64,000 bases of DNA from Rhodobium gokarnense (GTDB taxonomy: Bacteria; Pseudomonadota; Alphaproteobacteria; Rhizobiales; Rhodobiaceae). This document shows positions 15,719 through 38,684 of the stretch, one piece after another. A program made the position numbers and the translations under genes. A model generated the notes under the pieces. The model was not told the origin of the DNA, searched no databases, and saw only the letters and a list, made by a program, of their open reading frames with translations. The DNA lies in the NCBI RefSeq assembly GCF_025961475.1, contig NZ_JAOQNS010000003.1:72501-136500 (forward strand), in the 5' to 3' direction. Numbering within the stretch: position 1 is the first letter of the stretch; each line of letters starts with the position of its first letter.

Positions 15719-16531
15719 TTATATTATGCCCGTTTCCTTCCCGACAACCCTTGCGAAAACAAGTACATCAACCGATTGTGCGCCGCCGCGAAGAAGCGCC
15801 CTGGTCGAAGCCTTGACCGTGGCACCGGAGGTCAGCACGTCGTCGATGAGAAGAACCCGCTTGCCCGCGACGGCCGGGCGCCGCTCCGCGGGCACCCGGA
15901 ATGCCCCGCGCACATTGCGGTCCCGCTCGCTGCCGGTCAGCCCGACCTGGTGCTGGGTGGCGCGAATGCGGTGGAGGATGAGCGGGTCGAAGGCTACGCC
16001 GGCGAGCCGGGAAATTTCCGCCCCGAGCAGCGCCGCCTGGTTGAAGCGCCGCCGCCACAGCCGCCAGCGATGCAGCGGCACCGGCACGATGACGTCCGCC
16101 TCCATGAGGAGTTCCCTCCCGGCCCGCGCCATCAGCCGCGCCATCAGGCGCACATGCTCGGTGTGGTCGCGATATTTGAAGCCATGGACGATGTCGCGGG
16201 CGACGTCGTCGAAGACGGCGGCGGCCCGCGCCCGCTCGAACGGCGGCGGATCGGCGATCGCCTCGGCGCTGAGCGCGCCCTCGCCGAGATCGTAGGAGAA
16301 CGGAATGCCGAGCCGGGCGCAATAGGGCTTGTCGATCAGGGTCAGCCGCGACCAGCAGTCCGCGCACAGCGCATCGGCCACCGCCACCGGCTGCCGGCAG
16401 GCCATGCAAACGGGCGGCAGAACCAGATCGAACAGCGCGCGCCCGGCGGAACCGATCGCGGAGCCGGCACGCCGAAGCCGTCCCGGTTCGGGCGCGATAG
16501 CAGTATCGGCAAAGGCGGGATCCGGCATCAT
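15719..16531 (-). CDS. ComF family phosphoribosyltransferase-like protein
   Basis: A ComF/GntX-like protein of about 270 residues. The N-terminal half has a zinc-binding double-zinc-ribbon pattern (CMACRQ ... CADCW) followed by the FKYRDHTEHVRLMA segment. The C-terminal half is a type I phosphoribosyltransferase fold with the PRPP loop LLIDDVLTSGATV. In naturally competent bacteria ComF is needed for DNA uptake; in most Alphaproteobacteria the role is unknown. Adjacent ATGs at 16531 and 16528 precede MPDPAFAD; the frame is open back to 16633 but upstream residues look non-coding. It is divergent from the methyltransferase gene. Confidence 0.88.
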   Translation of the reverse strand: MMPDPAFADTAIAPEPGRLRRAGSAIGSAGRALFDLVLPPVCMACRQPVAVADALCADCWSRLTLIDKPYCARLGIPFSYDLGEGALSAEAIADPPPFERARAAAVFDDVARDIVHGFKYRDHTEHVRLMARLMARAGRELLMEADVIVPVPLHRWRLWRRRFNQAALLGAEISRLAGVAFDPLILHRIRATQHQVGLTGSERDRNVRGAFRVPAERRPAVAGKRVLLIDDVLTSGATVKASTRALLRGGAQSVDVLVFARVVGKETGII

Positions 16532-34536: not shown

Positions 34537-34655
34537 AGAAAGAATAAGTTCAGGGAGGGCGGTGCGCGATGCCCGGAAGCGGCCTGTTCGGGCCGCCGGC
34601 CGCTGGTCAGGCGCACACATGCACCGCCGCTCAAACATTTGGGCGACGCGACACC

Positions 34656-36440
34656 ATGCTGAATTCCACCCTTTGGGAGGCCTTTACCCCGTTCACCAAA
34701 TGGGCGCCGCGGGTCACCCGCGACGACCTGCAGCGCGACCTCGTCGCCGGCATCACCGGTGCCCTCGTCGTCCTGCCGCAGGGCGTCGCCTTCGCCTCCA
34801 TCGCCGGCATGCCGCCGGAATACGGCCTCTATGCCGGCATCGTCCCGGCCATCGTCGCCGCCCTCTTCGGCTCCTCGCGCCACCTCGTCTCCGGTCCGAC
34901 GACGGCCGCCTCGATCGTCCTCTTCTCCGCCCTCTCGGTGCAGGCGGTGCCGGAAAGCGCGCAATATGTGACGCTGGCGCTCACCCTCACCTTCATGGTC
35001 GGCCTTTTCGAGCTGGCGCTCGGCCTTGCCCGCATGGGCGCACTCGTCAACTTCATCTCCCATTCCGTCGTCGTCGGCTTCACCGCCGGCGCTGCCGTGC
35101 TCATCGCCGCCAAGCAGCTGAGGCATTTCTTCGGCATCGAGATGCCCTCCGGCGGCCATCTCCACCACATCCTCATCGCCTTCGTCGAACAGATCGACCG
35201 CCTCAACCCCTATGTCACGGCCGTCGCTGCCGCGACCCTCGTCAGCGGCATTCTCCTCAAGATGTTCGCGCGAAAGATCCCCTATCTCATCGTTTCCATG
35301 GTCGTCGGCAGCCTCGTCGGTGTTTTGCTCAATGCCCGCTTCGGCCAGGAGGTGACGGGGATCGCCACCGTCGGCGCCCTGCCGACCCATCTGCCGCCAC
35401 TGTCAGCGCCCGACCTCACCTTCGACACCATCAAGGAGCTCGCCCCGACGGCCCTTGCCATGACGCTGTTCGCGCTGACCGAGGCGGTCTCCATCGGCCG
35501 CTCGCTTGCCGCCCGCGGCGGCTACCGCATCAACGGCAGCCAGGAATTCGTCGGCCAGGGCCTGTCCAACATCTTCGGGGCGTTCTTTTCCGGCTATGTG
35601 GCGACAGGCTCCTTCAACCGCTCCGGCCTCAACTACGAGGCGGGGGCAAGGACCCCCTTCGCCGCGGTCTTCGCCGGCGGCCTCCTTATGGTCGTCCTCC
35701 TCTTCGTCGCCCCGCTCGCGGTCTACCTGCCGAAGGCCACCATGGCCGGGCTCCTCTTCCTCGTCGCCTGGGGCCTTTTCGACTTCAAGGAGATCGGCCA
35801 CATCCTGAAGGCGTCGGGGCGCGAGACGGCCGTCCTCCTCGTCACCTTCTTCAGCGCGCTCTTTTTAGAGTTGGAACTCGCCATCTTCGCCGGCGTCATG
35901 CTGTCGCTGATCATGTATCTGGAAAGGGTCTCCAAGCCGACGATCCGCCGCCAGGTGCCGGACCCCTATGGCGCCAAGAGGGTCTTCGTGTCCGACCCCA
36001 CCCTGCCGGAATGCCCGCAGCTCCGCTTTGCCCAGATCGACGGCTCGATCTTCTTCGGCAACGTCAATCGCGTGGAGGACACCTTCGACCTCTATCGCAA
36101 CACCCATCCGGACCAGAAACACCTCGCCATCGTCGCGCAGGCGATCCGCTTCGTCGACCTGCAAGGGGCCGAAGCTTTCGTCGAGGAAGCCAAAAAGAGG
36201 AAGGAAATGGGCGGCGGTCTCTACATCGTCAACGCCCAGATCCCCTTGTGGGAAATCCTGGAAAGCCTCGGCAGCCTCGACGACATCAACGAAAAGCACT
36301 TCTTCCAGGGCAAGACGGCCGCCGTCCACGCCATCTACCAGAAGCTCGACAAAACGGTCTGCAAGGGCTGCAACCAGCGCATCTTTACCGAATGCATGTG
36401 GGACCACGGGGTAAGAGGCAAGCCAGCGCCGGGGGAGTGA
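34656..36440 (+). CDS. SulP family inorganic anion transporter
   Basis: A 594-residue SLC26/SulP permease, probably for sulfate, bicarbonate or another anion. It has the SulP signature (DLVAGITGALVVLPQGVAFA, then GMPPEYGLYAGIVPAIVAAL), about 12-14 membrane helices, and a C-terminal cytoplasmic STAS domain (about nucleotides 36030-36330; AQIDGSIFFGNVNRVED, IRFVDLQGAEAF). A cysteine-rich tail (CKGCNQRIFTECMW) follows STAS. The frame extends to an ATG at 34569 behind GGGAGGG, but those 29 extra residues are unlike the family; 34656 is preferred without certainty. Confidence 0.92.
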   Translation: MLNSTLWEAFTPFTKWAPRVTRDDLQRDLVAGITGALVVLPQGVAFASIAGMPPEYGLYAGIVPAIVAALFGSSRHLVSGPTTAASIVLFSALSVQAVPESAQYVTLALTLTFMVGLFELALGLARMGALVNFISHSVVVGFTAGAAVLIAAKQLRHFFGIEMPSGGHLHHILIAFVEQIDRLNPYVTAVAAATLVSGILLKMFARKIPYLIVSMVVGSLVGVLLNARFGQEVTGIATVGALPTHLPPLSAPDLTFDTIKELAPTALAMTLFALTEAVSIGRSLAARGGYRINGSQEFVGQGLSNIFGAFFSGYVATGSFNRSGLNYEAGARTPFAAVFAGGLLMVVLLFVAPLAVYLPKATMAGLLFLVAWGLFDFKEIGHILKASGRETAVLLVTFFSALFLELELAIFAGVMLSLIMYLERVSKPTIRRQVPDPYGAKRVFVSDPTLPECPQLRFAQIDGSIFFGNVNRVEDTFDLYRNTHPDQKHLAIVAQAIRFVDLQGAEAFVEEAKKRKEMGGGLYIVNAQIPLWEILESLGSLDDINEKHFFQGKTAAVHAIYQKLDKTVCKGCNQRIFTECMWDHGVRGKPAPGE

Positions 36441-36458
36441 GGGGGCTCTCACTTTTTT
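36436..36458 (+). terminator. Intrinsic terminator of the SulP gene
   Basis: AGTGAG pairs with CTCACT over a GGGGCT loop, followed by TTTTT. The left arm overlaps the stop codon. The AT-rich island starts directly after it. Confidence 0.7.
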
Positions 36459-36623
36459 CTATTTCAAATGGTCAAAGTATTTTAGTATTCACAACGGCTG
36501 GGGCCACCCAAGCGGTCAATCCTGACGTCCGCCACGAAATAAGGAACATACTTTAGGTCTTTGGTAATTAATTTATTGAGCCTCAGATTCCATCAGTTAA
36601 TATGGCAAATAACAGAAAGCGCA

Positions 36624-37640
36624 ATGAGTATAGTTAAATTCACAGCGTTTTATCCATCGAGGCCGTATTTTGCTGACCGAAAACCAACATCCATCCCTAA
36701 GAGTACAACAGATTTCTTTAAGAAAATGGACAAAGTCGTTTTCTCAAACGACAACGATTCATTCCTCCTGAGGGTCTGCAGAGATGGACGCATCATAGTA
36801 AGAATCAAAAGCCTTGAAAAGGATATCGAAGGCAAAAACACAAGGTCAATTGAACAAAACGTTAAGCATTGGAGCCAGTATCTAGAATACTTAAATTCGA
36901 TATATCTTCTGATTGATTCTGCTATGCTTGAATTAGATAATAATGCATACTTTAATATTCACGAAATCACAAGACGAGATGCGTTTCGCGTATCCTATAA
37001 AAATGGGGAGTGGAACGGTGAGCAGATGGCAGATGAAAGCCTAGCATCACGATTTCAAAGAACTCGCCTATTCAAAGAAAGCATCTACGGTGGCGCATGG
37101 GCTCTTGAAATGGATTTCGATCAGAGACAAACTGTGCCAATAAAAATATTCGATCATGCATGTCAGAATTTTTATAAATGTTCGAAGCAGGCTATTATAA
37201 TAAAATATCTATCTAGATTGACGAAGAGCATATCGGAATACAAAGTTGGCAGCTATGAGAATTCTATTATTTTTTCTTGGTTCATTATTGAGTCAATAAT
37301 GAATGATTTCTGGGATAAAGTTTTAGCCGAAAAGGATCGCCAAATCTCCCCAACAGAGAAGCGTATAAATAAGGACAGAAAGAAATTTCTAACAGGAAGA
37401 GAATTCCCTTCCAGCGTTGTCTCAAATTTACTCGAACTTGAAGGGGAAATAGATTATGAAGAATTCAAAGAAATCAACAACGTCAGAGGACACCGAAACG
37501 ACATAGTGCACTCGATTGGGAAGAAACCGATAACCGTTAAAGAGGCAAGGGCAGCATTAAATATAGCGAGAAAAATGATTGAAAAGCGGTCTGGGATCGA
37601 CCTTCATATCAACGATGGCTACCACGTATTCGGGCTTTAG
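36624..37640 (+). CDS. HEPN-domain protein, AT-rich and probably horizontally acquired
   Basis: A 338-residue cytoplasmic protein with no signal peptide or membrane segment, and no function I can assign firmly. The C-terminal 130 residues look like a HEPN domain: a helix around 212-232 (NSIIFSWFIIESIMNDFW) and then R291-N-D-I-V-H296 before a last helix (VKEARAALNIARKMIEKR). RX4-6H with a polar residue after Arg is the catalytic motif of HEPN ribonucleases in toxins and abortive-infection proteins, including ApeA-like ones. Residues 1-200 may be a sensor or partner domain. The DNA is visibly AT-rich (about 40% GC by eye) against GC-rich flanks, with codons such as ATA, AGA and TTA. ATG 36624 has AGAAAG upstream; an earlier TTG at 36561 is less likely. 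No antitoxin or second gene accompanies it. Confidence 0.75.
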   Translation: MSIVKFTAFYPSRPYFADRKPTSIPKSTTDFFKKMDKVVFSNDNDSFLLRVCRDGRIIVRIKSLEKDIEGKNTRSIEQNVKHWSQYLEYLNSIYLLIDSAMLELDNNAYFNIHEITRRDAFRVSYKNGEWNGEQMADESLASRFQRTRLFKESIYGGAWALEMDFDQRQTVPIKIFDHACQNFYKCSKQAIIIKYLSRLTKSISEYKVGSYENSIIFSWFIIESIMNDFWDKVLAEKDRQISPTEKRINKDRKKFLTGREFPSSVVSNLLELEGEIDYEEFKEINNVRGHRNDIVHSIGKKPITVKEARAALNIARKMIEKRSGIDLHINDGYHVFGL

Positions 37641-37682
37641 CTACCTCCCTAATCAAAAGCTCAAAATTGATCTCGAGCGCCT

Positions 37683-38684
37683 CTACTCCACCCGCCACGT
37701 ATTCCCCGCATGCATCGCGCCGGCAAGCCGCGCGGCGGATTTGGCCATGGTGCCTTGGGGGATCGGCTGGCGGCCGATGAAGGTGGCTTCCGGGGCCGCG
37801 TAGATGACGCCGACGGGGAGCGGGGCCTCTAACGCCGAGAGCATCATGGCAAGGCCGTGGCTGGTCTCGTCGTGGACGACGATGTCGTCGAGCGTGACGC
37901 CGTCGAGGCCGATCGTCACCGGCTCCAGCGCATAGGTCTTGGGGTTGAACAGGATGCCCTTCGACTTGTCGGCGCCATAGAGCATGGGCTCGCCGTGGTG
38001 CAGCCACAGGAGCGTGTCGTCGATCTTCTTCTTGTCCTCCTGGTCGGAAAAGACGCCGTCATTGAAGACGAGGCAGTTCTGCAGGATTTCAACGAAGCTC
38101 GTGCCGTGGAAGGCGTGCGCCCGGGCGAAGGTCTCCGACAGAAGGTTCTGCAGCGCGTCGACACAGCGGGCGATGAACCGGCCGTGGGCGCCGATGGCGA
38201 ACTCGATCGGATTCACCGGCTGGTCGAGCGTGCCGTGCGGCGAGGTCGGCGACAGGGTGCCGCGACGCGAGGTCGGCGAGGCCTGGCCCTTGGTGAGGCC
38301 GTAGATCTCGTTGTTGAGCAGCAGATAGGTGACGTCGACGTTGCGGCGCAGGAGATGCAGCAGGTGGTTGCCGCCGATGGCGAGCGAGTCGCCGTCGCCG
38401 GAGACCACCCAGACGTCCAGTTCCGGCTTGGAAATCTTGACGCCGGTGGCGACCGCCGCGGCGCGGCCGTGGATGGTGTGGAAGCCGTAGGTCTCCATGT
38501 AATAGGGGAACCGGGACGAGCAGCCGATGCCGGAGACGAAGACGGTGTTCTCCGGATTGCAGCCGGCCTCGGCCAGCGTCTTCTGCACCGCCTTGATGAC
38601 GGAATAGTTGCCGCAACCGGGGCACCAGCGAACGTCCTGCGCGGACGCGTAATCCTTCGGCTTCAGGGCGACTTCTGCGGTCAT
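37683..38684 (-). CDS. korB: 2-oxoacid:ferredoxin oxidoreductase, beta subunit
   Basis: The 333-residue thiamine-diphosphate subunit of a KorAB-type enzyme, probably oxidising 2-oxoglutarate to succinyl-CoA with ferredoxin. Visible: RWCPGCGNYSVIKAVQ and GIGCSSRFPYY (iron-sulfur cysteines), HTIHGRAAAVATGVK, and the TPP/Mg site VVSGDGDSLAIGGNH followed by LLNNEIYGLTKGQ. Its ATG overlaps the korA stop by 4 bp, so the two are co-translated. It ends 42 bp from the convergent HEPN gene. Confidence 0.93.
   Translation of the reverse strand: MTAEVALKPKDYASAQDVRWCPGCGNYSVIKAVQKTLAEAGCNPENTVFVSGIGCSSRFPYYMETYGFHTIHGRAAAVATGVKISKPELDVWVVSGDGDSLAIGGNHLLHLLRRNVDVTYLLLNNEIYGLTKGQASPTSRRGTLSPTSPHGTLDQPVNPIEFAIGAHGRFIARCVDALQNLLSETFARAHAFHGTSFVEILQNCLVFNDGVFSDQEDKKKIDDTLLWLHHGEPMLYGADKSKGILFNPKTYALEPVTIGLDGVTLDDIVVHDETSHGLAMMLSALEAPLPVGVIYAAPEATFIGRQPIPQGTMAKSAARLAGAMHAGNTWRVE

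Follow-up and report, generated by a model that had tools for sequence, protein, structure and literature searches.

We identified, in the 64,000-nt stretch of Rhodobium gokarnense DNA analysed here (the window), a gene for a 338-aa HEPN-like protein at 36624–37640 on the + strand. The protein consists of an N-terminal domain (residues 1–187; 36624–37184, +) followed by a C-terminal HEPN-like domain (residues ~188–323; 37185–37592, +), and its gene is carried in an islet of ~1.2 kb (36444–37659) between two host genes. Kinship of the protein to the HEPN superfamily is well supported. On balance, we favour the view that it is a horizontally acquired single-gene HEPN effector, a Tha-like RNase whose N-terminal part would serve as sensor or regulator and which would act by abortive infection. 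The novelty seems to lie in the N-terminal domain and in the rare family that bears it; literature searches, made with words and not with sequences, gave no evident description of this family among the matches listed.

An AT-rich islet between sulP and korB

The islet is flanked on the left by sulP (34569–36440, +; start as in the ORF list) and on the right by a korB-like gene (37683–38684, −; from the ORF list and a match in the same-genus genome G002), both of which are host genes with names assigned by eye. The two flanking genes are convergent, with the HEPN-like gene between them. The ORF at 36624–37640 starts with ATG and is a real gene, with full-length relatives in Bradyrhizobium and Paraburkholderia. 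Its GC content is 38.3%, compared with 66.1% for the whole window, and the two 1-kb bins that contain it are the lowest of all 64 (GC 0.480 and 0.484; next lowest, 0.593), in agreement with the sequence-only reading of an AT-rich gene in GC-rich DNA. Likewise, GC3 was 0.40 in the HEPN-like gene vs 0.89–0.91 in sulP, korB and korA. An ORF scan of the islet detected no second ORF of more than 63 aa. Terminator-like sites, identified by consensus match only, lie at both edges of the islet, on the left after sulP (36433–36450, +) and on the right after korB (37659–37678, −), and three such sites were found in the region vs 1.1 expected from shuffles. Promoter-like sites on the + strand were detected only within the HEPN-like gene. 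An 11-nt inverted repeat, perfect and with a spacer of a single nucleotide, also lies inside this gene (37281–37303), probably by chance in AT-rich coding DNA.

The genus sample comprised three genomes, namely, that of the window (G000), G001 and G002, and the protein was absent from both of the other two. In the flank alignment with G002, sulP and korB each matched at 94%, while homology stopped at 36443 and restarted at 37660; the stretch without homology agrees almost exactly with the limits of 36441–37660 that had been read from the letters. Different DNA was observed past sulP in G002: 1.9 kb of unrelated sequence with a GC content of 0.50 runs to the end of the contig and contains two ORFs, of 195 and 303 aa, both on the minus strand (L018:5313–6789). 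The 195-aa ORF resembles a PIN domain by eye, and gave no convincing match in Pfam, PADLOC, NCBIfam or PDB. Past korB, the G002 contig ends 77 bases later. The two flanks are on separate G002 contigs, near their ends, and we infer their adjacency. In G001, korB has a different neighbour, CobW-like by eye.

Because the flanks are ~94% identical in G002, the homology breaks and other DNA follows, the islet appears to be an acquired insert that can be replaced, and, on the evidence of just two genomes, the sulP–korB gap resembles a site of replacement. The proposal that acquired DNA lies between the convergent genes is supported by the composition, the other DNA at this site in G002 and the patchy occurrence of the gene. 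If so, the gap would be a small exchange site, with foreign-looking DNA that differs between two sister genomes, and a place to seek similar genes. A scan of the islet and its region found no integrase or repeat marking its entry. An ordinary inherited host gene was rejected on the basis of the absence from two of two same-genus genomes and by the deviant composition, and assembly contamination by the position of the islet inside a 536-kb contig with host flanks. A phage gene was also rejected, as no relative was found among the phage records searched.

The HEPN-like domain and the conserved N-terminal domain

Residues 288–296 of the protein read R-G-H-R-N-D-I-V-H. The R291-N292-D-I-V-H296 motif (37494–37511, +; from the sequence, alignment and model) had been proposed as the Rx4H motif of HEPN ribonucleases, and R291-N292-x3-H296 agrees with a feature of the superfamily, an Rx4-6H motif with a polar residue after the arginine. 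R-N-x3-H was conserved in six of the seven copies that cover it (the window, L003, L004, L005, L029 and the C-terminal piece in L007, which is the same as L030) and was lost in the decayed copy of the Bradyrhizobium genome G972; it was also present in a distant match, L051. E223 (codon at 37290–37292, +), a conserved acidic residue placed in helix 2 by alignment and model, was detected in six of six sequences examined, being invariant in five aligned family members and present in L003.

The HEPN layout described in PMC3710099 has four core helices, with the motif at the end of helix 3 and the acidic residue in helix 2. Our model of residues 185–338, with a pLDDT of only 58.6, showed helices at 211–236, 278–295 and 305–323, with E223 in the second core helix and H296 directly following the third. 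The motif thus took the HEPN position expected of it, at the end of helix 3. In the VIA-align comparison of this domain model, the HEPN protein 2hsb ranked first of all (Z 8.3, rmsd 3.0, 100 aligned residues), the highest Z obtained here, where values below ~13 can arise by chance for helical bundles. Among the 23 chains with a Z of at least 5.0, 19 are HEPN proteins by title or associated papers, three (1ufb, 2jpu and 9oij) we take to be HEPN proteins and one is a designed protein. With the full-length model (pLDDT 42.3, low as for the domain model), 2hsb gave a Z of 8.1, and 15 of the 18 chains with a Z of at least 5.0 were HEPN, counting four that are presumably so (6m6u, 7bxo, 6m6w and 3c8g); the other three were Wzc. 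The two models share sequences, and these comparisons are not independent of each other. Foldseek gave nothing significant (best E 0.92), and a BFVD fold search gave no match at E ≤0.001.

In profile searches, HEPN families recurred, but always below their cut-offs. The protein reached no curated family cut-off in Pfam, NCBIfam, PADLOC or PHROGs. In Pfam, sub-threshold matches were obtained with DUF4145 for four of the five family members, with RiboL-PSP for three and with Swt1-HEPN for one. The DUF4145 (PF13643) score was 12.9 bits for the whole protein and 14.6 bits for the domain alone, below the curated cut-off of 23.1 bits, and we did not assign membership of this family. The distant match L051 also gave DUF4145 below the cut-off (E 0.0029), while the L029 protein gave no Pfam match up to E 0.5. 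A comparison of the family profile with nine DUF4145 stretches scored 24.5, with a probability of only 17.6%, compared with a maximum of 15.3 over 60 column shuffles and with 11.5 for the reversed control; in this alignment R288, rather than R291, pairs with the arginine of DUF4145. The likeness to DUF4145 and RiboL-PSP-HEPN (PF18735) thus consists of recurring sub-threshold matches over the motif, whereas the curated cut-offs of both remain above the scores of the window protein.

Several further matches were set aside. With the domain alone as query, SelB-wing_3 (E 0.0072; 0.016 for the whole protein) was better than RiboL-PSP (0.015) and DUF4145 (0.034), but it was taken as chance because it appears in one family member only. 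The HECW_N and Arm-DNA-bind_3 matches in Pfam, a single PHROGs match (E 0.2) and the PADLOC matches to SspB (E 0.0027), HEC-08 (0.011) and CARF_HEPN (0.036) were also taken as chance; the last two overlap the HEPN part and are too weak to use. NCBIfam gave no match for the protein or its relatives, and a PDB search by sequence with the protein and two profiles gave no HEPN chain. Pfam and PADLOC, which may or may not contain ApeA N-terminal and ApeA HEPN models, gave no such match up to E 10.

Taken together, the position of the motif, the conserved E223, the HEPN fold matches and the sub-threshold Pfam HEPN matches support the reading of RNDIVH as a HEPN motif. A helical domain outside the superfamily, with RNxxxH present by chance, would fit the failure of any family to exceed its threshold, the low model confidence and the Foldseek result. 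However, the motif and the acidic residue occupy HEPN positions and are kept even in distant relatives, both VIA-align comparisons have HEPN chains at their top, HEPN-family matches recur, and the DUF4145 profile comparison exceeds its shuffle control; we regard this alternative as very improbable. Residues ~190–323 are very probably a HEPN domain, and our confidence in the HEPN fold is high.

The N-terminal domain had been described as matching nothing recognizable, and this view held: residues 1–187 gave no convincing family match in Pfam, NCBIfam, PADLOC or PHROGs. Of the 94 residues that are invariant across the three full-length proteins, 49 lie in this domain, including those of the stretches FYPS, CRDGR and RDxFR (x being A or V). 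As it is conserved among relatives, we consider the N-terminal part to be a real domain, although its model is unreliable (block pLDDT 24–48). Between the window and Bradyrhizobium proteins, identity was 44% for the N-terminal domain vs 38% for the HEPN part. In this pair, the N-terminal domain is not the faster-evolving part, contrary to a possible expectation for a phage sensor.

Comparison with Tha-1 and the proposed mode of action

The nearest proven parallel that we found, by analogy, is Tha-1. Its description (PMC11087260) presents Tha-1 as a 301-aa tail-activated HEPN anti-phage protein of Staphylococcus phage 80alpha, with no discernible N-terminal domain and with a C-terminal HEPN domain carrying R265NSIMH270; its RNase activity is non-specific and is switched on by phage tail proteins, and the H270A variant is inactive. 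The window protein is likewise a single protein, of 338 aa, with an undescribed N-terminal part and with R291NDIVH296 in its C-terminal HEPN domain. In addition, Tha-1 matched DUF4145 in Pfam only below the cut-off (15.1 bits), and since Tha-1 is a proven HEPN RNase, the low DUF4145 score of the window protein is no argument against a real HEPN RNase. In contrast, sequence kinship between the two is confined to the motif stretch and is not significant (BLASTP E 0.22; profile comparisons, probability 1–2%), the hosts differ, and any trigger or action on phage is, for the window protein, a prediction. Membership of Tha by sequence was rejected on the basis of this alignment. We propose, by analogy, that the protein works like Tha, and do not class it as Tha.

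According to this proposal, the C-terminal HEPN domain (residues ~190–323) would be a dimeric, metal-independent endoribonuclease with a catalytic set of R291 (or R288), N292 and H296, helped by E223. The N-terminal domain (residues 1–187) would hold the HEPN RNase inactive and, on sensing a phage or mobile-element cue, would release its activity. The active protein would then cleave cellular RNA and cause growth arrest, that is, abortive infection as described for Tha. The dimer, the catalysis, the RNA target and the activation by infection are steps that we infer. We predict that the protein is likely an active RNase, and, with moderate confidence, that its role is in defence; the analogy with Tha and the gene neighbourhoods of the relatives make a single-gene defence or toxin plausible. 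If the proposal is correct, the gene represents a HEPN effector whose control domain is undescribed, missed by the Pfam, NCBIfam, PADLOC and PHROGs models (no cut-off reached or convincing E-value) and inserted by itself between two genes of the host, and R291, H296 and the N-terminal domain would be direct handles on its mechanism.

Other known systems resemble the window protein in part. HEPN-MNT (MntA-HepT) shows a similar arrangement of the HEPN model, with a Z of about 5–7, but the window islet has no nucleotidyltransferase partner and the window protein has a large extra N-terminal domain; a HEPN-MNT pair was rejected, as no other ORF of more than 63 aa is present in the islet and the flanks are sulP and korB. 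DS-11, as presented in PMC13092281, is a one-protein CBS-HEPN defence system, which also joins a control domain to a HEPN domain; its control domain is CBS, whereas the window protein has no CBS match in Pfam. HEPN effectors are well known in combination with other partner domains (PMC3710099; PMC13092281).

A HEPN protein acquired for another reason, with a role in regulation or in some other function outside defence, as in the MtlR branch, is quite improbable in our estimation. MtlR-family chains are among the fold matches, and catalysis has been lost in some HEPN families (PMC3710099), but the relatives retain the catalytic motif and the acidic residue, and the distribution of the family is rare and mobile.

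Relatives and their neighbourhoods

Full-length relatives were identified in Paraburkholderia caribensis MBA4 (L004:11989–13041; 35% identity) and Bradyrhizobium sp. CSS354 (L029:10001–11014; about 41–42% identity). The copy in Bradyrhizobium sp. 199 (G887; L030, the same as L007) is broken by a frameshift, and that in G972, also Bradyrhizobium, has decayed to N-terminal and C-terminal fragments; two of the three Bradyrhizobium copies are thus broken. A patchy spread was observed in all searches, the genome sets of which overlap. Relatives were found in 2 of 199 related genomes (G000 itself and G165, a distant HEPN-only match, which is L003), 1 of 385 class-wide (G000), 2 of 398 phylum-wide (G000 and G887) and 3 of 242 Bradyrhizobium genomes, and the HEPN part alone as query detected 4 of 297 genomes of the order (G000, G052, G165 and G887). 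A first scan of genome contigs gave no relative, and phage records gave no match. Two of 72,556 plasmid records matched, the one from P. fungorum over the C-terminal half only, and viral contigs matched only when the P. fungorum HEPN relative was the query (L052 and L053; partial, 57 residues, 40%). The Bradyrhizobium protein is 46% identical to the betaproteobacterial one vs 42% to the window protein, which comes from the same order as itself, a pattern that fits horizontal spread, for which three sequences are a weak test.

Mobile-type or defence-type neighbourhoods were observed around the relatives. In P. caribensis, the gene is located between two identically reading 389-aa transposase ORFs ~16 kb apart, together with AbiTii (E 2.9e-39), TIR_2 (E 9.1e-11) and a resolvase. 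The region L004:5013–23726, which also contains Abi_2-like and M48-like ORFs, both below cut-off, may be a composite transposon that carries defence genes. The relative in P. fungorum, a distant one, is 0.4 kb away from the gene for a TrlF ATPase and ~6 kb from BREX pglX. In G972, PIN-domain genes adjoin the remnants, which are located behind guaA and without DUF4365. By inspection, these neighbourhoods suggest mobile or defence cargo.

The PIN-domain genes beside the decayed G972 copy, together with the HEPN toxins of toxin–antitoxin pairs among the best fold matches, would also suit a HEPN addiction toxin that maintains the DNA around it and is kept in check by the N-terminal domain or an unrecognized antitoxin, such as an RNA. 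However, the islet has no partner ORF of more than 63 aa, the P. caribensis gene also has no evident adjoining partner on its strand, and the matched HEPN toxin chains, at 130–150 residues, are less than half as long as the protein; an addiction toxin thus appears rather unlikely.

In Bradyrhizobium strains CSS354 and 199, both of which have the full-length region, the gene is located behind guaA, directly after a DUF4365 gene (E 1.2e-10, over the cut-off), and the guaA-linked DNA with both genes has a GC content of 47–58%. The C-terminal part of the DUF4365 product (L029:8943–9974) is undescribed, and the protein resembles the PADLOC model for a short-Argonaute-associated REase (E 1.4e-5). 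The idea of a lone gene, as first put forward, therefore stands for the window islet but not for Bradyrhizobium. This order and the resemblance to the REase model raise the alternative that the gene acts as one half of a pair with a DUF4365 nuclease-like protein and that the window copy is an orphan. We consider this unlikely, as DUF4365 is lacking in the window, in P. caribensis and at the decayed G972 locus, and the window copy is intact.

The single-gene HEPN effector that we prefer may be extended, tentatively and with less confidence, to a wider scheme. In this scheme, the N-terminal domain would be a new sensor gating the HEPN ribonuclease, and the gene would belong to a rare one-gene abortive-infection family that moves between Alpha- and Betaproteobacteria via replaceable islets (the sulP–korB gap and the guaA 3′ end), possibly drawn, in Bradyrhizobium, into a module of two genes together with the DUF4365 nuclease-like protein.

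The guaA 3′ end is a described insertion site, and repeats of this type mark the islands inserted there, with a printed core repeat of ACAATNGAGTGGGA (PMC7775301). The same core repeat, ACAATNGAGTGGGA, is present at the end of guaA in Bradyrhizobium. In strain 199, a copy of the guaA 3′ end (213 columns, 92%) lies past the cargo at L030:11758–11968. The segment L030:7211–11968 is an islet at the guaA 3′ end, with the DUF4365 gene, the broken HEPN gene and a 128-aa ORF as its cargo. In CSS354, no such long copy was found within 1.6 kb, and a near copy of the short guaA-end repeat was detected at L029:16207. The short repeat at L029:8852 thus recurs 7.4 kb downstream, at 16207, possibly marking the far end of a larger island.
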